42,119 nucleotides of DNA from an archaeon (GTDB lineage: Archaea; Nanobdellota; Nanobdellia; Pacearchaeales; GW2011-AR1), in NCBI GenBank assembly GCA_009992175.1, contig JAACWA010000011.1:1-42119 (forward strand), written 5' to 3'. The translations under genes and the position numbers were made by a program. Of this stretch, positions 8,069 through 42,119 are shown one piece after another. The notes beneath the pieces were generated by a model that had not been told where the DNA came from, searched no databases, and was given only the letters and a program-made list of their open reading frames with translations. Positions within the stretch are counted from its first letter, which is position 1; each line of letters starts with the position of its first letter.

Positions 8069-8129
8069 TAGAATATCAAAAACAAACTAAGGGAAAGTTT
8101 CATAAAGAAAACCGGAGGTTGTCTTTATA

Positions 8130-8672: not shown

Positions 8673-8724
8673 TTTTCCAAGACAACAACTTTTAAAAAAC
8701 ATCGATTTCTCTAAATTTAATCAT

Positions 8725-8796: not shown

Positions 8797-8817
8797 TTTA
8801 TTTTTTTAAAAATAACT

Positions 8818-9141
8818 TTATTTTAATTTAACAGCTGTACCAAAAGCAAGCATTTCTGAAGCACCAGCCATTATGGTTGAAGTCATAAACCTCATCCCAA
8901 TTATTGCGTCAGCTCCTAAACTAATTGCTTCATTTACCATTCTGTTATATGCTTCATCTCTTGAGTGGCTTGCCATATCAGTATAAGTTTTTATTTCTCC
9001 ACCTACAAGATTTTTAAAAGCAGCACCAATATCTCGTCCGACATTTCTTGCTCGGACAGTGTTTCCACGAGCAACACCTAAAATTTGAACAATTTTTTTT
9101 CCAGGAATTTCTTCTCCGGTTGTAACAATCATTTCTTTCAT
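8818..9141 (-). CDS. YbjQ/UPF0145 family protein
   Basis: MIVTTGEEIPGKKIVQILGVARGNTVRARNVGRDIGAAFKNLVGGEIKTYTDMASHSRDEAYNRMVNEAISLGADAIIGMRF matches the UPF0145 pattern. Confidence 0.9.
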   Translation of the reverse strand: MKEMIVTTGEEIPGKKIVQILGVARGNTVRARNVGRDIGAAFKNLVGGEIKTYTDMASHSRDEAYNRMVNEAISLGADAIIGMRFMTSTIMAGASEMLAFGTAVKLK

Positions 9142-10982: not shown

Positions 10983-11043
10983 AAAATCATCTTTCTTTTT
11001 AATTATTGTTGTTCCACTTTAAAATAAAAACAAATCAAGAAAT

Positions 11044-12288: not shown

Positions 12289-12322
12289 GATTTAACAAAT
12301 TAGGACTTATTTATAAAAATTC

Positions 12323-13627
12323 CTAAAGAAAAAACAACAACCCCAGTCCAACAAGTAAAACAATTGAAAAAACTCCCACAATTGTTTTTCCATATTTTTT
12401 ACTTCCTAAAAAGAATGCAATTCCCATTTTTACAAGAGTATTTGAAATAGCAGCAAAAAGAATGGAAGTGGATGCAACAACAGAAGTAATTTCTCCAGTT
12501 TTGCTCAAACTAGACATAGATAAGGTAATTGCATCAACATCTACTAAACCGGAAAGAATACTTGCCCCATAAATTCCAAGGTGACCAAAAAGAATTTGAC
12601 CTATTTTTGAAACCAACAAAACCAAAAGAAAAAGAAGACCAAATTTAATTGCTGGACCCATTGCAAAAGGTTGTTTGAATTCTATTTCCTTTGCATGAGG
12701 ATTTTTATCTTCTGTTCTTAAAAAATAAAATGAAAAAACTAATCCTAAAACAAACATCCCCATTAAAGGCAAAAATAATTTTCCTAAAAGAATTGGATTT
12801 AAAACTGCAACTTCAAAGATAATTCTAATAAACATAATTGACATTGCAATAATTGTTGCGAGAATGTATGGTGAAACTTTTGTTTTTCCTTGACTTTCTT
12901 TTGACATTGAAAGGGTTACAGCAGTTGAAGAAACAAGTCCTCCAACAAAACCGGTAAGACCATGTCCTTTCTTTGAACCCAAAAAACGAACTAAAAAATA
13001 TCCAAAAAAACTAATTCCGGCAACAAGGATAACCATCCACCAGATATGATAAAAATTAAAAACATTTAATTGAGAAAGAAATTCATTGCTCACTCCAAAA
13101 TTATTTAATATTTCATTTAATCCGGGAAGGTCTGCAGGGGAGAAATTTTTATCTGGTAAAAGGGGTAAAACAACTAAAGAAATAATTGCAAACTTTATTA
13201 CTCCAGAAACTTCTTTTCTATTCATTTTTTTGATGAGTCCATGAAGTCTTTCTTTAAATGCTAAAAATGCCACAATTAAAATTCCAAAAATAATTGCAAG
13301 ATTCATAAACCCAGTTGTACACATCACTCCTAAAATAAATGCCATAATAGACACAACTTCAGTAATAATTGACATTACCTTAAACTTTACAAAAGTTAAA
13401 ATATATGAAAGCGCTGAAAAAAGAATAATTCCTGCAAAACCAATAATCACAGGGAGAGAATTAAAATCTCCTCCTAAAAAACCTAAAATTGCTCCAAACA
13501 ATGTAATTAAAATAAAAGTTCTAATTCCTGCAAAACGAGTAAAATTTTCTTTTTGAGGAGCAAATTCTCTTTGCATCCCAATTAATGCCCCTAAAAAGAT
13601 TGCAATCCCAAAATTGAGGAAATCCAT
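12323..13627 (-). CDS. MgtC/DUF4010-family integral membrane protein
   Basis: MDFLNFGIAIFLGALIGMQREF (MgtC-type N-terminus), multiple TM helices, C-terminal DUF4010-like SGLVDVDAITLSMSSLS. Confidence 0.85.
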   Translation of the reverse strand: MDFLNFGIAIFLGALIGMQREFAPQKENFTRFAGIRTFILITLFGAILGFLGGDFNSLPVIIGFAGIILFSALSYILTFVKFKVMSIITEVVSIMAFILGVMCTTGFMNLAIIFGILIVAFLAFKERLHGLIKKMNRKEVSGVIKFAIISLVVLPLLPDKNFSPADLPGLNEILNNFGVSNEFLSQLNVFNFYHIWWMVILVAGISFFGYFLVRFLGSKKGHGLTGFVGGLVSSTAVTLSMSKESQGKTKVSPYILATIIAMSIMFIRIIFEVAVLNPILLGKLFLPLMGMFVLGLVFSFYFLRTEDKNPHAKEIEFKQPFAMGPAIKFGLLFLLVLLVSKIGQILFGHLGIYGASILSGLVDVDAITLSMSSLSKTGEITSVVASTSILFAAISNTLVKMGIAFFLGSKKYGKTIVGVFSIVLLVGLGLLFFL

Positions 13628-13678
13628 AATTAAGAAAAATAAAAAAAACTATTTAAACATTTAGAATTTAGATTTTTA

Positions 13679-14887
13679 ATGTTCGGAAAGCTAAAAGACA
13701 AGTTAAAATCATGGATTGGGAAAGTTTCTGAGGAAACTCCAAAAATTGAAGAAGCAGTTGAAAAACCAAAAGAGAAAATTTCTAGAAAAGAAAAGAAAAA
13801 AACTGAAAAACAAATTAAAAAGAAAAACGAAAAAAAGAAAGTTTTTGAAAAAATTGATGAAGAAAATATTGATGAAAAATTAAAGAAAGAAGTTTCAAAA
13901 GAAAAATATGTTGAACCTGAAAAAGAATTTAATAACGGAATGGAAATGTTCCAACCTGAACCAGAAAAAACTCTTGAAAAAATAAAAGAAATCTCAAAAG
14001 AACCTGAAAAAGAAAAAAAACATTTTTTTAAAGATATTTTCTCCGGGAAAAAAAGAATTTCAAGTGAAGAATTTGAATCTTATTCTGAGGACTTAGAAAT
14101 GATTCTTTTAGAAAATAATGTTGCCCTAGAAGTTGCTGAAAAAATAATTTATGAATTAAAAGAAAAAATTGTGGGTAAAGACCTTGAAAAGAAAGAAATA
14201 GAAAATTTAATTAAAAAAAGCCTAAAAGAAATTATAGAAAATGTTCTTGTCAAACCTTTTGATATTGTTAAAGAAATAGAAGAAAAAAAGTCTCCTTATG
14301 TAATCATTTTTTGTGGAATAAATGGGGCTGGAAAAACAACTACTATTGCAAAATTTGCAAACCTCCTAAAAACAAAAAAAATAAGTTCGGTTTTGGCAGC
14401 AGGAGACACTTTTCGTGCAGCATCAATAGAACAATTAAACCAACATGGAGAAAAATTGAATTTGAAAGTAATAAGTCATGAATATGGTTCAGACCCTGCA
14501 GCAGTTGGTTTTGATGCCGTAAAATATGCTGAAAAAAATAAAATAAAAGCAGTATTAATTGATACTGCTGGAAGGATGCACACTGCAACTAACCTTTTGA
14601 AAGAGATGGAAAAAATAAAAAGAGTTTGTAAGCCTGATAGAGTAATCTTTCTGGGGGAATCAATTACAGGTAATGATTCAGTTGACCAAGTTAAAGCATT
14701 TGATGACACAATTGGAATTGATGGAATAATTTTGAGTAAAGCTGATATCGATGAAAAAGGTGGAACAGCTCTTAGTGTGGGATATATTACAAAAAAACCA
14801 ATTATATATCTAGGAACAGGACAAGAATACAAGGACTTTGAAAAGTTTGACAAAGAAAAATTTATTGAAAAATTAGGATTGGATTAA
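13679..14887 (+). CDS. ftsY: Signal recognition particle receptor FtsY
   Basis: Charged N-terminus, NG domain GINGAGKTTTIAKFA, AAGDTFRAASIEQL, IDTAGRMHTATNLL, LSKADIDEKGGTALSV. Confidence 0.96.
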   Translation: MFGKLKDKLKSWIGKVSEETPKIEEAVEKPKEKISRKEKKKTEKQIKKKNEKKKVFEKIDEENIDEKLKKEVSKEKYVEPEKEFNNGMEMFQPEPEKTLEKIKEISKEPEKEKKHFFKDIFSGKKRISSEEFESYSEDLEMILLENNVALEVAEKIIYELKEKIVGKDLEKKEIENLIKKSLKEIIENVLVKPFDIVKEIEEKKSPYVIIFCGINGAGKTTTIAKFANLLKTKKISSVLAAGDTFRAASIEQLNQHGEKLNLKVISHEYGSDPAAVGFDAVKYAEKNKIKAVLIDTAGRMHTATNLLKEMEKIKRVCKPDRVIFLGESITGNDSVDQVKAFDDTIGIDGIILSKADIDEKGGTALSVGYITKKPIIYLGTGQEYKDFEKFDKEKFIEKLGLD

Positions 14888-14889
14888 AA

Positions 14890-15183
14890 ATGAAAGAAGT
14901 AAAAACTGGAATATATAAAAGGATTATAATAAGACTTCCTGAAAAAGAATTAACAATTCCAGTAAAAAATCTTGAATCAAAAATTAAAGAATTAAATATT
15001 CTAATTAAAGAAAGGTCCCAAGATCTGGAAAAGAGAGGAAAAAGGGAAAATATTGAAAGACTTAAAAAAATTTGTAAAACGGGCAATTTATTGATGAGAG
15101 GATAATTAATAAATGAAATCACAAAAGAACTAAATTTAAAATATTCAACCGTTGAAAGTTACATTTCTTACTTAGAAAATTAA
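14890..15183 (+). pseudogene. Small HTH-like gene with an in-frame TAA stop (71 aa, stop at 15103-15105, then 24 further sense codons)
   Basis: Same frame reads MKEVKTGIYKRIIIRLPEKELTIPVKNLESKIKELNILIKERSQDLEKRGKRENIERLKKICKTGNLLMRG*LINEITKELNLKYSTVESYISYLEN*; the sequence after the stop resembles a recognition helix. Confidence 0.5.
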
Positions 15184-15222
15184 ACCCAAAAACTTAATAA
15201 TCAACCATTTACTTCTAAAAGA

Positions 15223-21219: not shown

Positions 21220-22011
21220 TTAAAAAATAGTTTTATAAAAAAGTTCCCGATTAACGTCTTGCCTTTTTGGAGAAACATTCTGAAATATTTCTTTTATTCT
21301 AAAAGGGGCATATTTTTCTCCAGTTAAACAAGCTGCAAGTTTTTTATATTCTATACTCAAATTGGAATTTGGTTTTAAATAAGTTGAAGGAGTAAAATAA
21401 TACTGAGCCTTTAAAACTCCCACATCATGAGGAATAACTGCAAGAACTGGTACTTCACTAGTTTTTTCAATGTCCTCTAGACTAAGTTCAAATTTATTAT
21501 TATAAACCTTATTTAAGATTAAACCTGAGATTGGAGTTCCCCTTTTTTTTGCAAGAGCAATTGCTTTTAGGGTCATAGTAAGAGTAGAATAATCTGGAGT
21601 TGAAACAACAAAAAGTTCATCTGAAGAAACTATTGCTGCAAGAGTTTCATTATTCAAAGCTGGAGAAGAATCGATTAATACAAAATCATAATCTCCCTTC
21701 AACTGTTTTATTTTTTCTTTTAATTTTAATGGATCAAATTGTTTTTTAGGATACATTGAAGCGGGAATTAAATCAAAACTATCGAGTTGATGTATTGCCT
21801 CTTTAATAGAAAAATCTCCATTCAAAACATGATGAATTGTTTTTTCTGGATTTATAACATTTAAATGAATTCCTAAGTTTGGAGCAGAAAAATTTGCATC
21901 CACTAAAAGAACCTTCTTACCAAAAGAAGCGAGTGCTGCACCAAGTGAAACAACACTAGAAGTCTTTCCAACCCCTCCTTTTAAACTTAAAATTCCAATC
22001 ACCTTGCCCAT
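21220..22011 (-). CDS. MinD/ParA-family ATPase
   Basis: From the internal Met: MGKVIGILSLKGGVGKTSSVVSLGAALASFGKKVLLVDANFSAPNLGIHL (deviant Walker A). The longer ORF (to 22071) has a 20-aa N-terminal extension that looks like upstream DNA. Confidence 0.9.
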   Translation of the reverse strand: MGKVIGILSLKGGVGKTSSVVSLGAALASFGKKVLLVDANFSAPNLGIHLNVINPEKTIHHVLNGDFSIKEAIHQLDSFDLIPASMYPKKQFDPLKLKEKIKQLKGDYDFVLIDSSPALNNETLAAIVSSDELFVVSTPDYSTLTMTLKAIALAKKRGTPISGLILNKVYNNKFELSLEDIEKTSEVPVLAVIPHDVGVLKAQYYFTPSTYLKPNSNLSIEYKKLAACLTGEKYAPFRIKEIFQNVSPKRQDVNRELFYKTIF

Positions 22012-22104
22012 ACCTAAAAGAGAAAAGAATAATTTAAATACCTTGTCTTTTAATACTAAAACACTTGCCACAAGCTTTAAAAAAGAAAATTACAACTAAA
22101 TAAC

Positions 22105-28162: not shown

Positions 28163-29551
28163 ATGAAACTTAAAAAAAGTCTTTTACTTTTACTCTCTCC
28201 CCTCTTCCTAATAGGATGTTCAAATTTTCCAAATATTTCCAAAGAAGAAACTCCAAAACCTAAAATTGATACAGTTTATGTAACAAAAGAAATTCCAGTA
28301 AAAATAAATCCCCTTGACACTTTGAATGGACCTAATGCTTATTCAAAAGCAAAAGAATTTTTTGAAAGAGGACAAAATTTTTATGAAGAAGGAAAAGATG
28401 ATTCTTCAAAAGTTTATTTCCAAAAAGGAATGAGACTACTTTCACAATCAGCCCTTTCATTAGAAGATTATAATTTTATAGACCCTCTTGAAAATTTGTA
28501 CAACCTTGAACAATATAAATCACAAAAAGAAGCTTTAGAAAATGAAATAGAAGTTTCAAAAGAAGAGATAGCAAATGCTGAAAAAAAATTCCCAATGGGA
28601 GAAAGATTTGCAGAAAAAATTGCTTATTATAAAAAACTTTACGAAACTAGACAAAACAAATGGTTTATGAATTCCTTAGAAAAATTTTTACAATATAAAC
28701 CTTTTATAGATTCTGTCTCGAATGAAAAAGCAATTCCAAATTTGATAAAATATATGTATCCTGTAGAAAGTGGTATGGAAACCTACATAAAATCTAGAGC
28801 AGGAGCAAAAGGAATTGCTCAATTCATGACTCAAACAGCAAAATTATGGGGACTAAAAGTAATGGGAATCTGGTATGATGAGAGGATGGACCCATTAAAA
28901 GCAATCCCTGCTTCAATGGATTACATAAATTTTCTTTATTCTGATTTGGGGGATCCTAGTCTTGCAATAGCTGCTTACAACTGTGGAGAAGGAAGAGTCA
29001 TTGACAAATTAAAAAGATTTAACTCTTTTAACTTTGATGAACTTTTAAAAAAAAGAGTTTTGCCAAGAGAAACATTAGAACACCTTCCAAAAATATATGC
29101 ATATCAGGAAAAAAGCGAAGGAATAAATTTTGAAAATCCTAAAAAAGATACTATTCTAGACAATTTATTAACAAAAAATTTTGATACCTTAAATGTACAC
29201 CAACAAGCTAGTTTTGGAATTCTTGCAAAAATTTTGGGAATCTCAAAAAAAGATTTAAAAAAATATAATCCTGCATATGGGCTCGATGCAACCCCTCCAG
29301 AAAAAATAGTAAAAGGTGAATATTCTTTTGAAATAAGAGTTCCTAAAGGAACAAAAGAAAATTTAGTAAAAAAATTTTCAAAATTAAAAGAAAAGTATGT
29401 TTTTGAAGGGGGAACTTACACCATAAGAAAAGGAGATAACCTTGGAAAAATAGCAAGAAAATTTGGAGTTTCTTTATATCAATTAAAAAAAGCAAATGGA
29501 TTTCCAATAATTATTTATGCAGGACACAGATTAATTATTCCGGGAAATTAA
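28163..29551 (+). CDS. Lytic transglycosylase (SLT/MltD-like) lipoprotein with C-terminal LysM
   Basis: Lipobox LLLLLSPLFLIGC; SLT motifs YPVESGMETYIKSRAGAKGIAQFMTQTAKLWGL ... AIAAYNCGEGRV; LysM YTIRKGDNLGKIARKFGVSLYQLKKANGFPIIIYAGHRLIIP. Confidence 0.93.
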   Translation: MKLKKSLLLLLSPLFLIGCSNFPNISKEETPKPKIDTVYVTKEIPVKINPLDTLNGPNAYSKAKEFFERGQNFYEEGKDDSSKVYFQKGMRLLSQSALSLEDYNFIDPLENLYNLEQYKSQKEALENEIEVSKEEIANAEKKFPMGERFAEKIAYYKKLYETRQNKWFMNSLEKFLQYKPFIDSVSNEKAIPNLIKYMYPVESGMETYIKSRAGAKGIAQFMTQTAKLWGLKVMGIWYDERMDPLKAIPASMDYINFLYSDLGDPSLAIAAYNCGEGRVIDKLKRFNSFNFDELLKKRVLPRETLEHLPKIYAYQEKSEGINFENPKKDTILDNLLTKNFDTLNVHQQASFGILAKILGISKKDLKKYNPAYGLDATPPEKIVKGEYSFEIRVPKGTKENLVKKFSKLKEKYVFEGGTYTIRKGDNLGKIARKFGVSLYQLKKANGFPIIIYAGHRLIIPGN

Positions 29552-29826: not shown

Positions 29827-30858
29827 TTATAATTTATCTTTAATTCCTTGGTTTGTCACAAAATAAACCGCTTCACCATCTGGTAAGTTTGGACTATCAA
29901 TTAATTTTGCAACACGACTTCCTTGTTTTGCTCGACGTAAATAAAGACGAAAAGTTGAAGCATGACCTACAATATTTCCTCCAATTGGAGAAGTTGGATC
30001 TCCAAAAAGTTGAGCAGGATTAGCCATCACTTGATTTGTAACATAAACTGCTAAGTTATAAGTTTCAGCAATTTTCATTAATTCATGCATATACCTATTA
30101 AGTTTTTGTTGTCTATCTGCTAATTGCCCTCTTCCTGCAAACTCTGCTCTAAAATGAGCAGTAAGTGAATCAATAACAATTAATCTGATTGGTTCCCCTG
30201 CTTTTATCATTTCCCCAATTTTTTCTAAAAGAAGAATTTGATGGTCTGAATTAAATGCTCTCGCAACTAAAATATTTTTTAAAACCATTTCAGGGTTAGC
30301 CCCAATTCCATCCGAAATTTGATTTATTCTTTCTGGTCTAAAAGTTCCTTCAGTATCAATATAAACCGATTTTCCTCCTGCTCCCCCTTGTTCAATTGGA
30401 AGTTGTGCATTTACCGCTAAGGAAAGCCCTAACTGAGTTTTACCCGAACCATAAGCCCCAAAAGCTTCTGTTATTGCCTTACTTTCAATCCCTCTTCCAC
30501 CCAGAAGTTCATCTAAACTTTTACTTCCGGTAGTAATATGTAAAACGTTAGATCTTTTTTTTGCAAATTCCATTCCATCACTAAAACCTAATTCCAAAAT
30601 ATTTCGAGCAGCTTGAATTGCCTTTCTTGCAACTGCACCACTAACTCCTGCAGCATCAGAAAGTGAAGCTGGACTCATTACTGCCAACCCCATCATGTCA
30701 TATACTCCTGCATTTTCCAATTTTGAAAGAGCAGCAGGTCCAATTCCAGGTAAATCAGTTAATTCTAAGGATTTTTCTTCTTTTTTAGATTTAGATTTTT
30801 TCTTTTCATCGTCAGAAATTGCGTCTTTAATCTCCTCAATTTCTTTTTTTGTAGCCAT
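29827..30858 (-). CDS. radA: DNA repair and recombination protein RadA
   Basis: HhH DLPGIGPAALSKLENAG; Walker A GAYGSGKTQLGLSLAV; L2/Walker B region LIVIDSLTAHFRAEFAGRGQLADRQQKLN. Confidence 0.97.
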   Translation of the reverse strand: MATKKEIEEIKDAISDDEKKKSKSKKEEKSLELTDLPGIGPAALSKLENAGVYDMMGLAVMSPASLSDAAGVSGAVARKAIQAARNILELGFSDGMEFAKKRSNVLHITTGSKSLDELLGGRGIESKAITEAFGAYGSGKTQLGLSLAVNAQLPIEQGGAGGKSVYIDTEGTFRPERINQISDGIGANPEMVLKNILVARAFNSDHQILLLEKIGEMIKAGEPIRLIVIDSLTAHFRAEFAGRGQLADRQQKLNRYMHELMKIAETYNLAVYVTNQVMANPAQLFGDPTSPIGGNIVGHASTFRLYLRRAKQGSRVAKLIDSPNLPDGEAVYFVTNQGIKDKL

Positions 30859-30898
30859 AAAAAATTAAAAGACCCTTCGTTTATAAAGTTTATAACAA

Positions 30899-31360
30899 TT
30901 AAAGATATACTTCAAAGATTAATTTAAAAATTAAAAACAAATCAAAAATTCCAAAGAATAAAAATAAAAAACTTTCAATTTTTCCTCCTGTTTTTAAAAA
31001 TCCATGAATTCTAAATTTAAATGGATAAAACAACCTCAATCCTTGTTTGGTAACTAAATCTCCCAATAGGTGAGTTCCATAACCAACTAAAAAGCCCAAG
31101 GAAATACTTGGAAAATAAAAATAGAATAAAAAATAAAAAACTCCCAAAAAGAGTAAACTATGCATAACCCCTCTATGTTTTGTAAAAGCAGTCAAAACAC
31201 GAGAAAAAAACCTCTTTCCAAATTTTGAAGTATAAGAATCCAAATCAGGAAGAAAAGTAGAAATTAAAACAGCAATTAAAAAAATTATTGGATTTGAAAC
31301 ACTTTGAATTAAAAGAAGACCAACAAATAAAGAGAAAACTAAGTGTGTTCTTGATAACAT
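30899..31360 (-). CDS. Membrane-bound metal-dependent hydrolase (YdjM/DUF457-like)
   Basis: MLSRTHLVFSLFVGLLL ... FLPDLDS ... KHRGVMHSLLFL ... GYGTHLLGDLVTKQGLRLFYPF. Confidence 0.85.
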   Translation of the reverse strand: MLSRTHLVFSLFVGLLLIQSVSNPIIFLIAVLISTFLPDLDSYTSKFGKRFFSRVLTAFTKHRGVMHSLLFLGVFYFLFYFYFPSISLGFLVGYGTHLLGDLVTKQGLRLFYPFKFRIHGFLKTGGKIESFLFLFFGIFDLFLIFKLIFEVYL

Positions 31361-31361
31361 C

Positions 31362-32285
31362 CTAAATATCTAATTCATCAATAAGTCTTTCAACATTAAT
31401 TTCGTCTACTGAATCAACAATTAATTCTGGATTATTAAAATATGAATTGAGCCTTACATTTCCTCCAAATACAAATTCTTTCCCTAAAAGATTATTTTTT
31501 TGTTCTTTCATTTTTTGTTCATCTTCGTATTCAGTTAAACCTGTTTTTTGAACCATCTCATGAAAAAGGACTGCACGTGTGTTTTCAGTTCCATCATCAA
31601 TTACTACGTTTAGAATTGCACGTTTCTCTGTTGGAACTCCTGAAGAAACTTCTTCCTCCGTCGCTTTTCTACCTGTATCGATATTTGCATTAAAAAATCT
31701 TAAATCAAAAGCTTGAACAACAAAGGCACGAGTATTAACTTTATCCCCCACATTAAATTCTTGAATATCTTTCTTTTTTATTGGTTTTTCAGTTTTTACT
31801 TCTGGAAATTTTTCTTCACTTAATTTTAATTCGGCAAAACTTCCCATATGAACTTCTCCCTGCCTCATATTTCCTGAAGAAACCTCAATAGAAACTCCTT
31901 CTTTAATTGTCCCATCTTCAATCATTTTAATGTGGTTTGTATCCCAAAGAACAAGTTTTATGTTGGAGGTTTCATCCGCAACAATCATATTAACAACTTT
32001 TCCCTCTTCCCCTGACTTAGTAGTGAAAGTTCTTATGGGATAAACAGTTATAACCTTCCCAGAAAAATGCACTTTTCTCATTCCTGGAAGAAGTTCATCA
32101 ATTTTTAATTTTTCATTGTCAAAAGAAATACCTAACTCGGCAGCAATAACCTGAAGAGCTCCTTCACGACTAATCAAACCAGATAATTTAGACCTTTTAG
32201 CTTCAACCCTCCTATCAATTTCTCCCTCTTCTATCCCAGAAACCTTAGATAATTTAGATAAAATTTTTTCATAACTTCCTTCCAT
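31362..32285 (-). CDS. Replication protein A-like OB-fold ssDNA-binding protein
   Basis: OB-folds: VHFSGKVITVYPIRTFTTKSGEEGKVVNMIVADETSNIKLVLWD and VNTRAFVVQAFDLRFF...RAILNVVIDDGTENTRAVLF. Confidence 0.85.
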   Translation of the reverse strand: MEGSYEKILSKLSKVSGIEEGEIDRRVEAKRSKLSGLISREGALQVIAAELGISFDNEKLKIDELLPGMRKVHFSGKVITVYPIRTFTTKSGEEGKVVNMIVADETSNIKLVLWDTNHIKMIEDGTIKEGVSIEVSSGNMRQGEVHMGSFAELKLSEEKFPEVKTEKPIKKKDIQEFNVGDKVNTRAFVVQAFDLRFFNANIDTGRKATEEEVSSGVPTEKRAILNVVIDDGTENTRAVLFHEMVQKTGLTEYEDEQKMKEQKNNLLGKEFVFGGNVRLNSYFNNPELIVDSVDEINVERLIDELDI

Positions 32286-33014: not shown

Positions 33015-33660
33015 AAAAGATTTGGAAAACATTAAAGAAAAGCTAATTGAACACATAAATTCCAATTATGAAAAATCGCAAGCAGAAGAATTTATAAAAA
33101 ATATAAAAGGGATGAATGATGAAGAATTTACTAAATTTTTAAAAGAACAAGGGTTAATTGGGGGGGAAAATCAAAAATCTCAATGTATCTTTTGCTCGAT
33201 TATTTTTGGAGATATTCCTTCCACTAAAATTGGAGAAAATGAAAAAGCGATTGCAATTTTAGATATAAAACCAGCTTCATTAGGACATTCTTTAATAATT
33301 CCTAAAGAACATATTGAATCAAAAGAAAAGTTACCTGGAGAAGTAGGTAAATTGGCAATCACAATTCAGGAAAAACTAAAGAAAACTTTTAATCCTAAAA
33401 AAATAGACTTAATTTCAACAAATGTTATGGGCCATGAAGTTTTGAACGTTCTCCCTATTTATGAAGAGGAATCTCTTGAATCGGATAGAAAAAACTTAAC
33501 CCCCGAAGAATTAAAAAAAGTAAAAGAAAAAATAGAAAAAGAAACTAAAAAAGAAGAACCCAAAGTTAAAGAAAAAGATAATAACAAAGAAGATTCGGAA
33601 GAAAAAACAAAAGAAGAAATTAATGAAAAAAATACTTGGCTCCCAAAAAGGATTCCTTAA
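33001..33660 (+). CDS. HIT-like domain protein with degenerate histidine triad
   Basis: CIFCSIIFGDIPSTKIGENEKAIAILDIKPASLGHSLIIPKEH matches HIT family; triad region reads GHEVLNVLP. Lys/Glu-rich tail. Confidence 0.8.
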   Translation: MTQTKKDLENIKEKLIEHINSNYEKSQAEEFIKNIKGMNDEEFTKFLKEQGLIGGENQKSQCIFCSIIFGDIPSTKIGENEKAIAILDIKPASLGHSLIIPKEHIESKEKLPGEVGKLAITIQEKLKKTFNPKKIDLISTNVMGHEVLNVLPIYEEESLESDRKNLTPEELKKVKEKIEKETKKEEPKVKEKDNNKEDSEEKTKEEINEKNTWLPKRIP

Positions 33661-34514
33661 AACCCAATACTTCTAAAAAACAAATCAAAAAAAGTTGTCT
33701 CTAAAAAAATCCAAAGAAGAATAAAACTAATAAGAAAAACTGGAGCAAACTGAATTCCATAACGAATCAATACCTTTTTTCCTCTTTTCTTTAAACGATT
33801 AATTTCTTCTTCACTAAGTCCATCCCAATTTGCTCTAAAAGTTTTACCTTTAACTTTAATGTCTTCGCTTAACCAATCTCCTGGAGTCAATTTAGAGGGA
33901 ATAACTTCACGCACCATACAAAAATCATCAACAGATTTTAAGAATAAATAAAAATAAGGAAAAACAAAAATAAGAATTCCAAAATAAAAGAGATAATTGA
34001 TATAAAAACTTAACAAGATAAAAACAAAAGCAAAGAAGGTACCCCAAATTATCAATTTTTTATTTTTATTAAATAAAACTAAAAATCCTTTTTTAAATTT
34101 TTTAAAATTAATAACTCCAATTATTAAACTTAAAAATATTCCATATATTGCTCCCACAAAAAGATAAATCAAAATAAACAATAAAAATAATTTCAAATTC
34201 TGAGCAAAACTAGAAAAAATAGGAAGAACAGCTCCTAAAGAAATCATAAGTTTCATATCTCCTCCAGCAAACATTTTATTATAATAAAATAAATTTCCCA
34301 ACACTAAAAAAATTGAAAAACCTAAAATTCCTTGATAAAAAAGTGAAAAATCAGTTGAAACAAAAAGAGAGTAAAAAAACCTAAATCCAAAAGCAAAAGC
34401 AATTAAACTAAAATTAAGCCAATTTGGAATCTCTCTAGATTTGAGGTCTGAAATTACTGCAAAGATTAACCACACAAAGGCCAACCCATATAAAAAAATT
34501 ACCTCAATCATCAA
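33657..34514 (-). CDS. Type IV prepilin peptidase (A24 family)
   Basis: AVISDLKSREIPNWLNF and FAGGDMKLMISLGAVLP catalytic-Asp motifs; multi-TM. Confidence 0.9.
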   Translation of the reverse strand: MMIEVIFLYGLAFVWLIFAVISDLKSREIPNWLNFSLIAFAFGFRFFYSLFVSTDFSLFYQGILGFSIFLVLGNLFYYNKMFAGGDMKLMISLGAVLPIFSSFAQNLKLFLLFILIYLFVGAIYGIFLSLIIGVINFKKFKKGFLVLFNKNKKLIIWGTFFAFVFILLSFYINYLFYFGILIFVFPYFYLFLKSVDDFCMVREVIPSKLTPGDWLSEDIKVKGKTFRANWDGLSEEEINRLKKRGKKVLIRYGIQFAPVFLISFILLWIFLETTFFDLFFRSIGF

Positions 34515-34542
34515 GATAAATAGGATTTAGAGTTTATAAAAA

Positions 34543-34692
34543 TTAATTTTTCTTCTTTTTCTTTTTGTCAGCCGATTCTTTCATCTTGATATTTCCAAGC
34601 CTAAACTTTCCCCCTGTTTTGTAGGGATGCTTCTTCTTCTCTCTGAGCTTATCTTTCTTCTTATTTCTTCTTTCTTCACTATCTCTTGCCAT
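34543..34692 (-). CDS. Very basic small protein (49 aa)
   Basis: Below track cutoff. Reads MARDSEERRNKKKDKLREKKKHPYKTGGKFRLGNIKMKESADKKKKKKN*. Confidence 0.6.
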   Translation of the reverse strand: MARDSEERRNKKKDKLREKKKHPYKTGGKFRLGNIKMKESADKKKKKKN

Positions 34693-34752
34693 AAATATCT
34701 AAAGAAGAATAAGTTTAAAACAATTACTAATTATTAAAAAACAAATAAAAGA

Positions 34753-35196
34753 CTAATTAATAAAACACTTGTCTTCTTTTGCTAAAGAACTAACATCATA
34801 CTTTCCTGTGCTTACACTGTTAACTCCTTTCTTTCCATCAATTACAATGTCTTCACATTTTAAATCACAAGAGATTGAGGCACATGAAGGAATTTTATAT
34901 TTTGCAAAAGTTTTTTCGCTTGAAAAAACTGCACAACTAGATTTAATCTTTAAATTATCTTCATTTGATTTCAAAGTTCTCTCACCAGAACAATAACCAT
35001 ATTGATTGTTTAAAGTACATGCAACATTACAATCGTCAATAACCGAATCTACATTTGAGGGATTAAAATATTTCTGAAAAGCACTCCATCCTGTGGCAAA
35101 ACCCCAAACAAGAGCAACAAGAACAATTAAACCTAAAATTAAAAGAATTATGGTATTTGTACTCATCCCTTGTCCTTTTTTATTTTGAATTGTCAT
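34753..35196 (-). CDS. Prepilin-like protein
   Basis: MTIQNKKGQGMSTNTIILLILGLIVLVALVWGF leader, then Cys-rich ectodomain. Confidence 0.75.
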   Translation of the reverse strand: MTIQNKKGQGMSTNTIILLILGLIVLVALVWGFATGWSAFQKYFNPSNVDSVIDDCNVACTLNNQYGYCSGERTLKSNEDNLKIKSSCAVFSSEKTFAKYKIPSCASISCDLKCEDIVIDGKKGVNSVSTGKYDVSSLAKEDKCFIN

Positions 35197-35238
35197 CTCT
35201 CTTCAAGTAAATAGAGTAAAAAATATTTATAAAACTTC

Positions 35239-35598
35239 CTATGAGGGGACCTGGTACTGAACTGAAAACAAAAGAACCTTTTTACCTCCAAAAAATAAGA
35301 CTCCCCCCTTGGTCTCAAACTTTTCTTCATAAAAATAATTTCTCCCGTACTCCTCTGTAATATTAAAAAAAGTTTTTAATTTGTCCTCCTTCATTCCATT
35401 ATTTTTATAAAAAGAATATTCATCCGCATTTGAATTAACCTTTTGTAAGATACTTATTCCTACAAAAGAATTACCTGCCCTAAAATCTGAAATAAAAAAG
35501 GTGAGAAGGGCAAATCCACAAAGAGCAAAAATTCCAATAACTAAAAGAGTTACTGGAAGGTCTCCTTTCTTATTAAAAGTTTTAATTTTTTTAATCAT
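35239..35598 (-). CDS. Prepilin-like protein
   Basis: MIKKIKTFNKKGDLPVTLLVIGIFALCGFALLTFFI leader. Confidence 0.7.
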   Translation of the reverse strand: MIKKIKTFNKKGDLPVTLLVIGIFALCGFALLTFFISDFRAGNSFVGISILQKVNSNADEYSFYKNNGMKEDKLKTFFNITEEYGRNYFYEEKFETKGGVLFFGGKKVLLFSVQYQVPS

Positions 35599-35930
35599 TT
35601 TTTACTATATCTCAAAGCAACCTCCGCTTTTGTTTGATTATAATCTAAATTAAATTTATCTTCACTTGCCATTTTAGAAAGAGTTTTTTCCATAATCAGT
35701 CTTTTTGTTTCAGAACCAATTGAAACATAAGTGAAAAGAGATTTTTTCAAAAAAGGGTCTCCTCCCTCAAATGAAGATTTTCCAGTAATTCCTGGACGGA
35801 AATTTCCTATCTTTTTTGTTCCCCCCAAAAGAGAAGCTCCAAAAATAAAAAAAACCATCATAATTACAATTAAAATAGTTGCAACTAACCAAGTTAGAGT
35901 CTCACCTATTTGTGCTTTTTTAGTTTTCAT
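35595..35930 (-). CDS. Prepilin-like protein
   Basis: MKTKKAQIGETLTWLVATILIVIMMVFFIFGASLL leader; internal start preferred over 35963 since it abuts the upstream stop at 35932. Confidence 0.7.
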   Translation of the reverse strand: MKTKKAQIGETLTWLVATILIVIMMVFFIFGASLLGGTKKIGNFRPGITGKSSFEGGDPFLKKSLFTYVSIGSETKRLIMEKTLSKMASEDKFNLDYNQTKAEVALRYSKK

Positions 35931-35931
35931 T

Positions 35932-36606
35932 TTAATTTGTGTTTTCTTCAACTTTCCCCACAATTGAAAGAACCTTAATCAAATAAACTGAATCTGAATT
36001 TAATTTCGCAAAAAATTCCTGATTAAAACAAGTTGCAAGTTTACTTTTTCCTGAAACGGAAACATCACAATCAGATTTCCAATTTTTATTCCCTTCTGAA
36101 ATTAAAAGAGAAGATTTTCTTAAATCTTCCTCTAAAAAAAATTCAACTTCGAAGTAATAAGGGGGCCTTTTAAATTCTTCATTAATTGTTAAATTTAAAG
36201 AACATTTTTCTAAAAAATTATCTTTAAAGTCTTCTCTGAATCCTCCTTGGTTATTTAATAAAAGAGGATTAAATTCCCCCCCAAAATAAATACAATCTGC
36301 AACTTTTTGACCTAAAATTTCGGATTCTTGCTTTCTTACATCATAATTTTTTCCATAAAAAGAATTTACCATTAACACTACTCCTACTGCAACAATAACA
36401 AGAATTGCAAACCAGTAAATAGAAAGAAGTTTATCTCCCTTTTTATTTATGCCCTTGGGAGTATTTATGCCCTTGGGGGTATTTATGCCCTTGGGAGTAT
36501 TTATGCCCTTTAGGGTATTTATGCCCTTGGGAGTATTTATGCCCTTTAGGGTATTTATGCCCTTGGGAGTATTTATGCCCTTTAGGGTATTTATTTTTTT
36601 TATCAT
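35932..36606 (-). CDS. Prepilin-like protein with repeat-expanded leader
   Basis: MIKK(INT[L/P]KG)x8-INKKGDKLLSIYWFAILVIVAVGVVLMVNSFYG. Confidence 0.8.
   Translation of the reverse strand: MIKKINTLKGINTPKGINTLKGINTPKGINTLKGINTPKGINTPKGINTPKGINKKGDKLLSIYWFAILVIVAVGVVLMVNSFYGKNYDVRKQESEILGQKVADCIYFGGEFNPLLLNNQGGFREDFKDNFLEKCSLNLTINEEFKRPPYYFEVEFFLEEDLRKSSLLISEGNKNWKSDCDVSVSGKSKLATCFNQEFFAKLNSDSVYLIKVLSIVGKVEENTN
36444..36587. repeat. Eight-unit 18-bp tandem repeat within a coding sequence
   Basis: Plus-strand units TATTTATGCCCTTGGGAG or TATTTATGCCCTTTAGGG, eight copies, then a ninth partial TATTTAT. Confidence 0.97.
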
Positions 36607-37016
36607 TTTATTTTTGAAAAAGTTAAGATATAAAATCCTTCACGGCCAGGATCAGTATCCTTGTACGCGGTCACATTTATATCATTAAAGAAGTGATACT
36701 TTGTTCCTCCTTTTTCGCTTAATTTAATTGTAACATCATTTCCTTCAATTTTTAAAATATCTGAAAAATCAATTCCATTTTTATCTGAAACTTCTTTTAA
36801 ATCTTGAAGATTCACATACATTTTCATTGTGGGTCTTGCTGAATCAATCAAAAGAGCTATATTCTTAGAATATGCATCTTCAAGTAAAACTGCTCCACTT
36901 CCTTGTTTAATAAGAAATAAAACAAGAATCATTAAAAAAAGAATATTTAGAACAATAAAGATTATATTCTCCACCAAAAACTCTCCTCTTTTATTTTTAC
37001 CTTTGAATGAGTTCAT
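36603..37016 (-). CDS. Prepilin-like protein
   Basis: MNSFKGKNKRGEFLVENIIFIVLNILFLMILVLFL leader with Glu after the KRG site. Confidence 0.75.
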   Translation of the reverse strand: MNSFKGKNKRGEFLVENIIFIVLNILFLMILVLFLIKQGSGAVLLEDAYSKNIALLIDSARPTMKMYVNLQDLKEVSDKNGIDFSDILKIEGNDVTIKLSEKGGTKYHFFNDINVTAYKDTDPGREGFYILTFSKIK

Positions 37017-37051
37017 AACTTAGAGAAGAAAAAAGGAATTAATAAAGTTTT

Positions 37052-37960
37052 TTAACTTGAAGTTAAAATTTGATCACAATTTAAAGCCTTAAATTCAGGA
37101 GAATTTACTTCAACAATCCAGGAAGGAACATATTCATTTCCACTTTGTCCTCTTACAACCGCAGCAACCAAAACTCCTCCAGTAAGCCCGGTAACAACTC
37201 CTCCAGCAACTGCAACCTTTGCTCCAGTTAGTAATGCTGCTGCACCAAATCCACTCGCTCCTCCTGTTAAAGGAGTCAAAGCAAGACCTCCTGCAACGAG
37301 ACCTGCACCCGCTCCAATTCTCCAAATCCATCCCCAAGTACTAACATCACTAGTAATTCCCATCAAAGAATAATATTGTTTATCCAAATTTATTTTTCCA
37401 TAATCTCCAGAATAAGAACTAAGAAAGTTTCTTAAATTTAAATAATCTAGATAAGTCTGGCCATCAGCTCTTTTTGTTTTATCAAGATAATTATAAAGTT
37501 CCTTTTTATCAAATTCTCCAGTTCCATTAAAAATTTCTTTTTTAACCGAATCATCAAAAGCTATCATGTCACAAATTGAACATTGCAAATCAGGAATTAC
37601 TTCCGAACCCACATAATTTACCTTACCCTCACCAAACATCCACCAACATTCTGCTAATTGGTCCGCAAGAGCTTGATAAATTTCATCCTTTGTCTCAACT
37701 TTAATGACATCTGGTTTAGTCATTACTTCACAACTTCCATCCACACTTAAACAAAGATACTCTCTTTTACATTGTAATGGAAAAGTGTCAGTGGGTAAAA
37801 TTGATTTTCCCCGGGTTATAACAGAATTGTGACATATATCTTGTTCAGTTTCTTTTCCTAAATTCAACCTAAAAATAAAAAATAAAATAACTGCAAAACT
37901 TACAACTAAAATTATTAAAATAACAATTTGTTGTGTTGTAAGTTCTCCTTTTTTAAACAT
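37052..37960 (-). CDS. Prepilin-like protein with Gly/Ala-rich hydrophobic segment
   Basis: MFKKGELTTQQIVILIILVVSFAVILFFIF leader; internal RIGAGAGLVAGGLALTPLTGGASGFGAAALLTGAKVAVAGGVVTGLTGGVLVAAVV. Confidence 0.75.
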   Translation of the reverse strand: MFKKGELTTQQIVILIILVVSFAVILFFIFRLNLGKETEQDICHNSVITRGKSILPTDTFPLQCKREYLCLSVDGSCEVMTKPDVIKVETKDEIYQALADQLAECWWMFGEGKVNYVGSEVIPDLQCSICDMIAFDDSVKKEIFNGTGEFDKKELYNYLDKTKRADGQTYLDYLNLRNFLSSYSGDYGKINLDKQYYSLMGITSDVSTWGWIWRIGAGAGLVAGGLALTPLTGGASGFGAAALLTGAKVAVAGGVVTGLTGGVLVAAVVRGQSGNEYVPSWIVEVNSPEFKALNCDQILTSS

Positions 37961-38062
37961 CTAAATTACCCCCAGATTTCTAAACAAAGTATAAAGTCCT
38001 ATTAAAGCTATCGAAAAAAATACAATCCAGATAAGATATTTTATGAATTCATCTAAATTCAT
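37961..38062 (-). CDS. Single-helix membrane microprotein (33 aa)
   Basis: Below track cutoff. Reads MNLDEFIKYLIWIVFFSIALIGLYTLFRNLGVI*; start overlaps the upstream gene's stop region and its stop abuts the downstream ATG. Confidence 0.6.
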   Translation of the reverse strand: MNLDEFIKYLIWIVFFSIALIGLYTLFRNLGVI

Positions 38063-38565
38063 TTTTTCTTAACCTCAATTTTATCTTCAGATTTGGAAAT
38101 TTCAACATTTGTTCCCCCATTAGATGGTTTTTCTATTTCGAAAGTAGTAAATTTGTTTAAATTTTCTACTATCAAGCAAACTCCTGAATTGTCACACTCA
38201 CTAATTTGTCTGTCTTTAAACCATAAAGCATTGTCAAAACTAACTTCATCACAAATACATAAACAATTTTCTCCTGCACAAGAATTAGGTTTGGTTTCTC
38301 CCCCTACAAAACTAAAAATGCTCCATGAAGAAGGAGTAATGTCTGTTAATTTTTCACTAGAAATATCTCCTGAATTAACCCTTTGAAGAATCTCTTTCAT
38401 TCTTCCAATCGTTGACTTTGCCTCATTTAATTTTTGATCCTGAGAACTTGAATAATAGATAGAAAATAAAAGATAAATTAAAAGAGAAATTCCAATTAAA
38501 GCAATAACTAATTTTACTACTTCTGTTGCGAGAAACATCCCTTTTTTATTCTTTTTTTTATCCAT
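38059..38565 (-). CDS. Prepilin-like protein
   Basis: MDKKKNKKGMFLATEVVKLVIALIGISLLIYLLFSI leader, Cys-containing ectodomain. Confidence 0.75.
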   Translation of the reverse strand: MDKKKNKKGMFLATEVVKLVIALIGISLLIYLLFSIYYSSSQDQKLNEAKSTIGRMKEILQRVNSGDISSEKLTDITPSSWSIFSFVGGETKPNSCAGENCLCICDEVSFDNALWFKDRQISECDNSGVCLIVENLNKFTTFEIEKPSNGGTNVEISKSEDKIEVKKK

Positions 38566-38728
38566 AAAAAATTCTCCAAAAGTTTCCTAAGCTAGCGTTC
38601 GTTGGAAGAAGATTAAAAAATTCCAAAATTCTATCTTTAAAAATAAAATAAACTCCTAAAACTACAGCGACAACTACAAGAGCTCCAACAATTAATTTAA
38701 TTATTTGTTCTACCGTTAATTCCGACAT
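38558..38728 (-). CDS. Single-helix membrane microprotein (56 aa)
   Basis: Below track cutoff. Reads MSELTVEQIIKLIVGALVVVAVVLGVYFIFKDRILEFFNLLPTNASLGNFWRIFYG*; overlaps next ATG. Confidence 0.65.
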   Translation of the reverse strand: MSELTVEQIIKLIVGALVVVAVVLGVYFIFKDRILEFFNLLPTNASLGNFWRIFYG

Positions 38729-38734
38729 TTTATT

Positions 38735-38905
38735 TTATCCTCCCCTAAAAATTCCTTTTAATCCATCTAAAACGGAAATCCCCTTTCCCTTTAAGAAAAA
38801 AATTGAAATCATTAAAACAGTAAGGATAGCAAGAGAAATTAAAATCCATGGAAGATACTCTGAAACAATTCCTTTTTTACCAAAAAATCTCCTCTTTCTA
38901 TTCAT
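38735..38905 (-). CDS. Prepilin-like microprotein (56 aa)
   Basis: Below track cutoff. Reads MNRKRRFFGKKGIVSEYLPWILISLAILTVLMISIFFLKGKGISVLDGLKGIFRGG*; KKG leader. Confidence 0.65.
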   Translation of the reverse strand: MNRKRRFFGKKGIVSEYLPWILISLAILTVLMISIFFLKGKGISVLDGLKGIFRGG

Positions 38906-38948
38906 AAAATTAAGAAGTTAAATGGATTTAATAAAGATTACTAAAACC

Positions 38949-41099
38949 TTATCCTAGTAAACCACTAAGCACAGTTCCACTTAAAATTGAAAGGGCAAGA
39001 ACACTTAAAAGTGCAACAATGAAATAAAGAATCATTCCTTTCTTTAAATTAATTCCAATTTTATTTGTCATTTCTAATTTGTCTTCCCCTGAATCAATTG
39101 TTACAAGTGTTGAAGTTAAAATAAAAATTATTTCAATTAAATAAATTCCAACAGAAATTTGTAAAAAATATGGAGGAATCATGTCCTTATATTTAAAAAT
39201 ATCAACCAAATTTCCAATGGAACCTAAACTACTTGCCCCCACCCCGGAGAGGTCAGCAACATTTAACATCCCCAAAATTGAAGTAATCATCGCTGCAAGA
39301 CCAACAACAATTCCTGAAAGAAGAGGAGCTAAAAAAGTCATATTACTTTTCATGTCACTAGTAATTTCTGCGAGTAAATCTCTTAACCTCATCGTAATCT
39401 TATCTAAATTTTTTATATATTCAGAAATACTCATTAAACTCACAGCTGCAATTTTTAATCCTTTTTTACTTGATTCAATTAAAACCCTCATTGAAGTTGA
39501 AATCAAATCCGAGGGGAAAAATCTTATTGCTCCCCTAGTTTTGTCAAAGATTGCTTTTTCGACACTCATTCCCATTTGTCGAATATTATAATTTACTTTT
39601 CCAAAAAATTCTCCAGTCATAAGGCCTCTATTTGATTCTGCAACTTTACCAAAAACCAATTCCGGAGGAACTCCATTTCCAAGTCTATTCCCCAATTGAA
39701 ATAATGAATTATTGAATTCACTCTCAAGTTCTTTTGTTTTCTTTCTCTCTTTAATTAAATCTTTTGTTTTTTCTTTATACGCGATTGAAAAATAAAGAGC
39801 AATTGAAATTGGAAAAAGCATTCCTAAAAGAAGTGCTCCAAGTCCAAAGGGACCTTTAACTCCCGTAGGAGTTTCAATAAAATCAAAAAAGTTTCCATTT
39901 CCTAAAAAACTAAGTCCAACTTGACTAAAAGAAAAATCTTTTGCAATTCCGAGTGATTCTGGAATAGGTGTAAACTGAAAGATTAAGGGAATTAAACTTA
40001 AAATTATGAATGGCAATACTATCCAAAAAGCTTTTCTGTAGGGGGCACTACTTTTATACTTAGGATAAAGAGGATTTTTTTCAAGCAAAGTTGTTTCTCC
40101 ATATCCTCCTGGACGCATATTCAAAACTTTATCTGTTAAGTAATAAACCATAAAAGGAACAATTAAGTTAAACAAAATAAAAACATGAACATAAGTTAAA
40201 ATTCCTCCAATCATTGCTGAAGCAAGAGGAATTAAAGCTAAACCTAAAGTGGGTAAAACTACTCCCAACATATACACATTTGTTAATGGACTTCTAACCG
40301 AATGACTAAATTTAAGCATCTTCTCATAAACTCCATCAAGAACAACTTGTAATCCTTTTTCTAAAGTTGAAATACGACGTGAAGAATCTGGTTCAAATAA
40401 ACTAGATTCAATTAAGTGAAAACCTTCAATAAATTCTGTAGAATATCCTCTCCAACTTTCTAAGTAGTGATCTAAACTTTCTTTAATTGTGGAATATTTC
40501 CCTATTTCAACATTATAGAATATTTTTTTGAAATCAAGTGCAAGAGGATATTGTAAATGTTCTGATGCAAACTGAATTGCTTTTTCTAAATTGGGAGTGT
40601 GTCTCATATAAACCACAATATAAAGAATTGCAGGTACCATTTGACTTGATGCCTTAAGCCTCCATTTGTTAGCAAGTCTCTCAGGATATTGATTCAAAAA
40701 ATAAAAAAGAAAAATTGAAAAAATAACCATTAAAAAAAAGAAAAGAAAAGGAAACTCACTTCCAATTAAAGTTACACCAACTGAAAACAAAAGTCCAATT
40801 AAAAAAACTGCTAAAAATGCAGTAACTGAAAGCCCTATCGCTTGCCAAGGTTCAACAGAAAGGTGAGCAGATTCTAAACTTTTAACAATTTTCTCTTCAT
40901 CTTTTTTAGAAGGTTTTATATGAATAAAATTTCCAAGGCTGTTAGCCCATCTTTCATAAGTTGTATACTCTCTTGAAATTTCTCCCTTAAATTTGTCATA
41001 TGAACTACTGTAATCACTAACACTACCAGAAGAATTCATTTGACCTTCTATTTTAGCTCCATATTTTTTCAAAACCTCATCTACACTTTCTCTTTTCAA
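38949..41099 (-). CDS. Type II/IV secretion system F-family platform protein (TadC/FlaJ-like, duplicated)
   Basis: 716 aa with two F-domain-like halves (VPAILYIVVYMRHTPNLEKAIQFASEHLQYPLALDFKKI... and FNNSLFQLGNRLGNGVPPELVFGKVAES...) plus multiple TM helices. Confidence 0.87.
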   Translation of the reverse strand: MKRESVDEVLKKYGAKIEGQMNSSGSVSDYSSSYDKFKGEISREYTTYERWANSLGNFIHIKPSKKDEEKIVKSLESAHLSVEPWQAIGLSVTAFLAVFLIGLLFSVGVTLIGSEFPFLFFFLMVIFSIFLFYFLNQYPERLANKWRLKASSQMVPAILYIVVYMRHTPNLEKAIQFASEHLQYPLALDFKKIFYNVEIGKYSTIKESLDHYLESWRGYSTEFIEGFHLIESSLFEPDSSRRISTLEKGLQVVLDGVYEKMLKFSHSVRSPLTNVYMLGVVLPTLGLALIPLASAMIGGILTYVHVFILFNLIVPFMVYYLTDKVLNMRPGGYGETTLLEKNPLYPKYKSSAPYRKAFWIVLPFIILSLIPLIFQFTPIPESLGIAKDFSFSQVGLSFLGNGNFFDFIETPTGVKGPFGLGALLLGMLFPISIALYFSIAYKEKTKDLIKERKKTKELESEFNNSLFQLGNRLGNGVPPELVFGKVAESNRGLMTGEFFGKVNYNIRQMGMSVEKAIFDKTRGAIRFFPSDLISTSMRVLIESSKKGLKIAAVSLMSISEYIKNLDKITMRLRDLLAEITSDMKSNMTFLAPLLSGIVVGLAAMITSILGMLNVADLSGVGASSLGSIGNLVDIFKYKDMIPPYFLQISVGIYLIEIIFILTSTLVTIDSGEDKLEMTNKIGINLKKGMILYFIVALLSVLALSILSGTVLSGLLG

Positions 41100-41159
41100 A
41101 ATTGCTCACCTCTGAAATAACAGTTAAAAATAATTAATAAATGTTTAGAAAACCAAGTT

Positions 41160-42119
41160 TTACGGAGAAGGGTTTGTGGCATTATCTCCTAAAATACATT
41201 TTCTATAATTAACAGAGCCAAGAGAAACAATATTTAGAATTCTACACCCTATAGATTTGAAGAGTCCTGTTTGGGTGTCTATTTGAGCTCCTAAACCAAT
41301 ACAAATTCCATTTGAACATTGATTACTAGAACACTCATAATTATTTTGACATTTGATTAAAACATCTTTAACTCCCTCTTTTTGGGGTTTTACAGTCCCA
41401 TCAATATCACAATAAGCATTAATTGTATCTGCAACTCTTCCTAGAGCAGTATAGGTTAAAGTGAGACGAATATAACTGTTCTCATAATTTTCAGAATCAT
41501 AAAAAACTTCATCAACAAAGAAACTTAAGTTTGTGATTTCATTTTGCCATCCTTCAACATTCACTTTAACTGTATCTCCCTTAACAAAAGTATAGTTCTG
41601 GTTCCCCCAATCTTTAACATTAAATTTCACAACTCCCTTTGGAGAAATAGAAAAACTGACTCCTTCGTCTTGAGTATCATTTATTCTTAAAGTTACAGAT
41701 TGTTTTCCATCTTGTAATTCAAGATTCCATCCAATTTGACTCTCAAACCTAAATCCATAAGGGATACACCTGTTATCTCCAATTGCATTACTTTCAAACC
41801 ACTTTGGAACCAAACATCCAGAACAAATTCCTGGATTACAAGAAATCTGACTCTTTATTTCTTGATTTTCACAACCATAATCTTTACAAGTTTGAGTTTG
41901 ATATCCATATTCTGGACAAATAGTAGGTTCAGTTATACAAATCCATTGAGGACTACAAAAATCTTGAGGAATTTCAGAAGGACAAATATTTATTGAATTA
42001 AAAACTTGATTCGAAAAAAGCCATTCAAGATCGAAATGTTTCCAATCTAAATATTTGGCTCGATTGTCTTCTAAAGAATATGACGTCCTCCGCACCCTGA
42101 AGGTTTGATGCTTCGCATC
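41160..42119 (-). CDS. Cys-rich secreted protein, 5' end beyond or at right edge
   Basis: Frame open to position 42119; track start at 42095 is a GTG and no internal Met is present, so the true start is uncertain. Cys clusters NICPSEIPQDFCSPQWICITEPTICPEYGYQTQTCKDYGC and CQNNYECSSNQCSNGIC. Confidence 0.7.
   Translation of the reverse strand, partial: DAKHQTFRVRRTSYSLEDNRAKYLDWKHFDLEWLFSNQVFNSINICPSEIPQDFCSPQWICITEPTICPEYGYQTQTCKDYGCENQEIKSQISCNPGICSGCLVPKWFESNAIGDNRCIPYGFRFESQIGWNLELQDGKQSVTLRINDTQDEGVSFSISPKGVVKFNVKDWGNQNYTFVKGDTVKVNVEGWQNEITNLSFFVDEVFYDSENYENSYIRLTLTYTALGRVADTINAYCDIDGTVKPQKEGVKDVLIKCQNNYECSSNQCSNGICIGLGAQIDTQTGLFKSIGCRILNIVSLGSVNYRKCILGDNATNPSP

Follow-up and report, generated by a model that had tools for sequence, protein, structure and literature searches.

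Two conserved type IV pilus-like loci have been described in DPANN lineages by Hamm et al. 2024 (PMC11291902). Locus 2 contains a CpaF ATPase, a TadC protein and two coiled-coil proteins likened to viral attachment proteins, and the lineages with it are Nanohaloarchaeota, Woesearchaeota, Pacearchaeota, Nanoarchaeota and Aenigmarchaeota; the filament proteins named in the figure legend belong to Locus 1 only. Makarova et al. 2016 (PMC4858521) mention a nanoarchaeal ATPase of the 4F type for which no pilins had been identified. The kind of machine discussed here and a related DPANN locus are, in other words, already known. Set against the open-licence literature, the new detail is two leaderless subunit-like proteins of 33 and 56 aa.

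The DNA analyzed (the window) is the whole of contig C26, which ends at 42119, in a 609-kb, 45-contig, 84%-complete assembly. The closest named genomes are Candidatus Pacearchaeota (DPANN). The locus very likely encodes one half of an archaeal type IV filament machine, with its pilins, its platform and its peptidase. Read inward from the contig end, the minus strand carries a cut ORF, a platform of 716 aa, ten ORFs with a single helix (eight of them prepilin-like, PP1 to PP8), a 49-aa ORF and an A24 peptidase:

41160..42119 (-), C-terminal portion of a larger protein rich in Cys, truncated where the contig ends
38949..41099 (-), membrane platform of 716 aa, TTG start, both halves GspF/TadC-like (AlphaFold2, Foldseek, Haloterrigena match)
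38735..38905 (-), PP8, prepilin-like, 56 aa, leader ...GKKG/IVSEY (leader scan)
38558..38728 (-), 56-aa leaderless single-helix protein, start MSELTVEQ (hydrophobic helix without basic leader)
38059..38565 (-), PP7, prepilin-like, leader ...NKKG/MFLAT (leader scan, ortholog comparison)
37961..38062 (-), 33-aa leaderless single-helix protein, start MNLDEF (corresponds to mini-proteins that carry a leader in distant relatives)
37052..37960 (-), PP6, prepilin-like, KKGELTTQ, the largest with 302 aa (leader scan, AlphaFold2)
36603..37016 (-), PP5, prepilin-like, leader ...KRG/EFLVE (leader scan, ortholog comparison)
35932..36606 (-), PP4, prepilin-like, KKGDKLLS, leader extended by an 18/36-bp tandem repeat
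35595..35963 (-), or from an internal ATG at 35930, PP3, prepilin-like, leader ...KKA/QIGET (leader scan, orthologs)
35239..35598 (-), PP2, prepilin-like, leader ...NKKG/DLPVT (leader scan, ortholog comparison)
34753..35196 (-), PP1, prepilin-like, KKGQGMSTN, leader MTIQNKKG, 147 aa with 8 Cys (recognizable in other orders)
34543..34692 (-), very basic 49-aa ORF (like ORFs, KRNKxK...KKHPYKxGG, in the same place in several relatives)
33657..34514 (-), A24 prepilin peptidase with about eight predicted membrane segments (PF01478, E 1.9e-13; hydropathy)

Many adjoining genes of the cluster overlap by a few bases (36603/36606, 35595/35598, 38059/38062, and 38558/38565) or abut without a gap (37960/37961), which suggests a single transcription unit. 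Each of the ten single-helix ORFs is small or medium-sized, with its one hydrophobic helix at the N-terminus. An earlier note on this DNA had pointed out the cluster; the two leaderless ORFs, the basic ORF and the ORF cut by the contig end are additions to it. All eight leaders quoted in that note, each with its hydrophobic helix, are found between the platform and the A24 peptidase on the minus strand. We scanned for a leader ending in [KR][KR][GA] and followed by a hydrophobic stretch of 17 residues. Within the cluster, the scan returns the eight prepilin ORFs and one false match inside the platform, and in the remainder of the window one match only (a 611-aa ORF at 5258-7093); in 60 third-order Markov sequences, the mean is 0.03 and the maximum 1. 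With the strict FlaFind consensus ([KRDE][GA][ALIFQMVED][ILMVTAS], as quoted in PMC5517150), a check that had been proposed for each ORF, four of the eight agree, but the other four fail, solely at the last position.

The basic site is mostly conserved in the orthologs of the prepilin genes (13-17 loci per gene) and the helix persists too. Whole-protein identity among orthologs has a median of 31-41% for the prepilins; the platform reaches 63% and the ATPase discussed below 69%. A conserved leader with a divergent ectodomain is the pattern expected of pilins. In a Pfam and NCBIfam run on every cluster ORF, the prepilins have no match. That they otherwise look unrelated, as had been claimed, agrees with pairwise blastp, where the best E-value is 2e-4, the rest are weaker, and the alignments begin mostly in the leader or helix. 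The leader of PP4 contains (36444-36594) 8.4 copies of an 18-bp unit coding for INTPKG/INTLKG, with a 98% match at period 36; a single unit of this repeat is present in the closest relative (L062). The AlphaFold2 model of PP6 (pLDDT 82) has a long N-terminal helix and an alpha/beta ectodomain, mostly confident, and a fold search with it against the PDB gave no match. A hydrophobic Gly/Ala-rich stretch at about 215-265 (with low model confidence at 217-260) occurs in many PP6 orthologs and is absent from some; it is a possible membrane-inserting element.

The assignment of the last gene of the cluster to the A24 peptidases holds: next to its Pfam match, the protein has a catalytic-type Asp, D23, and a GGDxK motif at D86. 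No match to it was found among PDB sequences. It is the only A24 peptidase detected in the genome. Class III prepilins and a peptidase thus occur side by side, with eight leaders (four of them in the strict consensus) and one A24 enzyme that would, judging from the sequences, cleave the leaders.

The two leaderless proteins sit upstream of PP6 (33 aa) and of PP7 (56 aa). Both start at about the position where a mature pilin begins, with the initial Met near mature position +1 and an acidic residue close to +5. A concealed upstream leader was considered for both and rejected, since in the window in-frame stops occur two codons 5' of each start. At other loci, the small protein ahead of PP6 does carry a leader (for example, KKA/QMSELFRYLLW, KKG/QMEWLFKILLW, or KKG/VMDQFVKW), and the leaderless start MNLDEFIKYLIW is similar to the mature start of these leadered counterparts. 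The leaderless or leadered state, labeled by a simple pattern match, was placed on a platform tree of 51 loci, and 28 of the 32 leaderless cases fall within one clade of 31 (SH-aLRT 100). The state requires 8 changes on that tree versus 15.4 in shuffles, and none of 500 shuffles is as low. Judged by the outer branches, the direction would be loss of a leader, rather than gain, in the lineage of the 33-aa protein; for the 56-aa protein, the evidence is thinner. Because they begin near the start of a mature pilin, these proteins may be subunits or adaptors that need no trimming, and, with Met near +1 and an acidic residue close to +5, entry into the filament or its base without the peptidase is conceivable. 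That two of about ten subunits of a system with a near phylum-wide platform join untrimmed, without a signal peptide, is an idea we put forward tentatively. The leaderless mini-proteins constitute a natural test of whether the leader must come off for pilin assembly.

The platform had been described as FlaJ/TadC-like. The ORF of 716 aa is real, but no Pfam or NCBIfam model names it FlaJ or TadC, and a sub-threshold T2SSF match is present in only 2/19 platform orthologs (best E 0.0023). With the AlphaFold2 model (pLDDT 78, pTM 0.73), Foldseek returns PilC, EpsF, and OutF at probability 0.69-0.96 (TM up to 0.71), every other match among those listed being at 0.14 or below. All the Foldseek E-values are above 0.001 despite the high probability, and the result is for that reason supportive, not conclusive. 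The "double TadC platform" of the earlier note is a single protein whose two halves match, half by half, a 604-aa platform of Haloterrigena (when this is compared with the platform family of the window, both halves align, with 151 bits and E 1.7e-47). In profile-profile comparisons, neither the platform profile against the T2SSF platforms of the same genome nor the two halves against each other reach significance, so that the double domain is argued from the fold search and the Haloterrigena match; the profile has no match among PDB sequences. By these fold matches and the Haloterrigena match, with no Pfam match over the cut-off, the protein is of the GspF/TadC type.

As had been stated, no secretion ATPase is present in the window, and the contig stops at 42119. 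One was to be sought just beyond that point, where the contig gives nothing further, but a candidate exists on contig C33 of the same assembly. Three secretion ATPases are encoded in the assembly, on contigs C21, C11, and C33. The one on C33 (about 765-784 aa, depending on the choice of start) ends 129 bases from the contig edge. It matches T2SSE (PF00437, E 2.4e-16), and its best solved relatives are AfGspE2 (E 1.3e-30), CpaF (E 2.9e-27), and FlaI (E 3.7e-16), as for an ATPase of the VirB11/GspE type. In relatives, the ortholog is directly upstream of the platform on the same strand; counted over loci whose sequence extends 5 kb or more upstream of the platform, a same-strand ATPase lies at most 3 kb upstream in 16/19, 35/52, and 13/16 loci. 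In relatives, the ATPase ortholog is preceded by genes for two membrane proteins and by a divergent pair for soluble proteins (117 and 221 aa). Because of the order of ATPase and platform in relatives, C33 very probably joins C26 via the cut ORF, across an unsequenced junction.

The cut ORF probably encodes a surface protein. In CG11_30_13, a relative of at least 784 aa (64% identity over 307 aa; L062/L205) precedes the platform, and in that genome the ATPase and the platform are likewise on separate contigs. Elsewhere among the loci searched, we did not observe relatives of the cut ORF, apart from one match in L088 that is weak and partial. The content of the slot between the ATPase and the platform differs by genome, with some of the genes secreted-looking (L043 11271-12539, L059 7905-8501, and L205 1-2368).

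The platform is present in 173/180 genomes of the order. Its profile matches 232/237 genomes sampled across the phylum (those beyond the order all from the same class) and 202/207 of the sampled genomes with a completeness of 90% or more and a contamination of 5% or less. A few genomes have a second platform copy, weaker-scoring. At least four leadered ORFs lie downstream of the platform, no more than 8 kb away, in 15/20 order-level, 33/46 named, and 5/17 other-order loci; prepilins are absent beside it in about a quarter of the Pacearchaeota loci and in most loci of other orders. Loci L046 and L056 have a platform without adjoining prepilins. In L046, glycosyltransferase-like genes (10826-15218) stand in their place, and in L056 an A24 gene (8099-9036) comes after the platform with only a 41-aa ORF between. 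The platform is retained by nearly all sampled genomes of the phylum despite their very small size, which suggests something basic, perhaps host contact; since it is found in nearly every one of them, it may serve cell-cell touch in probably host-dependent cells.

Several other genes of the window deserve mention. RPA, RadA and a small membrane protein like YdjM-type hydrolases (29827-32285) are frequent neighbors of the pilus locus, also in L162, L163, and L164. A 462-aa protein (28163-29551) looks, from its sequence, like a lytic transglycosylase that ends in a LysM-like part; a lytic transglycosylase of such a kind has been reported for small-genome Pacearchaeota (PMC8204110). At 21220-22071 there is a MinD/FleN-like P-loop protein, by motif, and MinD/FleN-like ATPases are connected with archaeal type IV pili (Makarova et al.). 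The region 3-7093 encodes a secreted-looking protein of 1753 aa, truncated at the contig start; the 611-aa protein, with a KGGQVTFF-type start, lies upstream of it.

Because ATPase, platform, peptidase and prepilins are all found, membership in the type IV filament superfamily is well supported. The multi-component surface apparatus proposed in the earlier note, read as a type IV filament, finds good support in the ATPase upstream in relatives, the single A24 peptidase, the recurrence of ATPase and prepilins beside the platform in relatives, and the phylum-wide platform. Two outcomes had been named there as speaking against it: most leaders scoring negative as class III signals, or neither an ATPase nor a conserved neighborhood in related genomes. 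Neither came about, though the strict FlaFind consensus accepts no more than four of the eight leaders. In the machine as we picture it, the C33 ATPase would power the two-domain platform, the A24 peptidase would remove the basic leaders of the eight prepilins, and the trimmed helices would be drawn from the membrane into a filament or a short pseudopilus, with the shaft perhaps made of one or a few subunits and the tip or base of the remainder. Its most likely use would be adhesion to, or contact with, other cells, and, granted the identity of the machine, we lean toward attachment as the main one. Attachment to a host by the predicted filament is plausible. In cryo-TEM, pili-like appendages from ultrasmall cells of CPR/DPANN size extend into hosts; in the same study, the large size fraction, which is taken as host-attached, is enriched in Pacearchaeota (PMC7906910). 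Attachment would fit this biology of Pacearchaeota, and those appendages may serve as general context for the locus. The text of a Pacearchaeota metaproteomics paper contains no mention of pili.

The subunits could also form a short pseudopilus for the secretion or display of surface proteins, for instance the variable ones encoded between ATPase and platform. The unlike prepilins resemble a set of minor pilins with no obvious major pilin among them, and a variable ORF lies in the slot in several genomes (for example, the Cys-rich one of at least 784 aa in CG11_30_13, or, in L043, one of 422 aa whose N-terminus is Sec-like). On the other hand, that slot is empty in L044, L045, and L061. A piston has less use in archaea, which as a rule lack an outer membrane to cross, and we consider a pseudopilus rather unlikely.

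The proximity of RPA and RadA brings to mind a DNA-uptake filament, for natural transformation, that would feed these two proteins. RPA lies downstream of the platform, on the same strand and at most 10 kb away, in 12/20 order-level loci and 26/46 named ones, and in L163 and L164, which belong to other orders, it comes 13 and 2 bp after the last small membrane ORF. RPA and RadA are, however, housekeeping genes whose linkage may be ancestral, and in the window three opposite-strand genes stand between the A24 gene and RPA. The ComEC channel (PF03772) is absent from the genome, an absence that weighs little because archaeal control genomes lack it too. DNA uptake appears improbable. An archaellum would share the superfamily, with a FlaI-related ATPase and a platform, but a swimming filament is hardly to be expected here: the C33 ATPase is closer to AfGspE2/CpaF than to FlaI, and PF04659 (Arch_fla_DE, for ArlC/D/E) is absent in this 84%-complete genome, the controls Methanocaldococcus jannaschii and Haloferax volcanii being positive. 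Attachment by a type IV filament is the reading we prefer.

The same genome has PilB3-like loci on C21 and C11, similar to the present one in combining an ATPase, a platform and several prepilins. They differ by a platform split into two canonical T2SSF proteins, a shorter ATPase (517-518 aa) and the absence of an A24 gene from the two stretches. These two loci have syntenic flanks, and other genomes of the genus have one such locus. The C11 ATPase is 81% identical to that of C21; C11 may be contamination from a sister species, which is unproven because the GC content is the same as in C21.

On plasmid pHTUR04 of Haloterrigena turkmenica, the ATPase (38.5% identical over 41% of the query length, with E 9e-55, and among the closest in the plasmid collection) is one of the two closest plasmid-borne relatives of the C33 ATPase, and it is followed by the 604-aa platform, a "secretion system protein". 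There, the ATPase and platform are shorter and the annotated stretch has neither an eight-prepilin cluster nor an A24 gene. A tentative link of the C33 ATPase to subclade 4F comes from this relative and from the remark of Makarova et al. 2016 (PMC4858521); the Cys-rich N-terminal domain of 4F (variable, and frequent rather than universal) is not seen in the C33 ATPase, which has 1 Cys. The archaeal type IV pili surveyed by the same authors (PMC4858521), subclade 4F among them, also comprise ATPase, TadC, peptidase and several minor pilins, whereas neither Pfam nor NCBIfam has a name for the prepilin families of this locus.

Locus 2 of Hamm et al. 2024 is alike in the ATPase, the platform, the two soluble proteins by the ATPase and the lineages, a likeness at the level of composition. 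This composition is present on C33 and C26 and, contiguously, in relatives, the coiled coil being judged by periodicity only: the 117- and 221-aa proteins have no predicted membrane segment, and a heptad-like periodicity is clear in the 221-aa protein and weak in the 117-aa one. Unlike Locus 2 as the figure legend presents it, the platform is followed here by eight prepilins and an A24 peptidase, and the counterparts of its coiled-coil proteins look cytosolic. The prepilins of this locus may already stand in the supplement of Hamm et al. 2024. The set offers candidate subunits for a Locus 2-type system, and PP1 to PP8 with the mini-proteins make a concrete candidate list for the filaments of cultured relatives.
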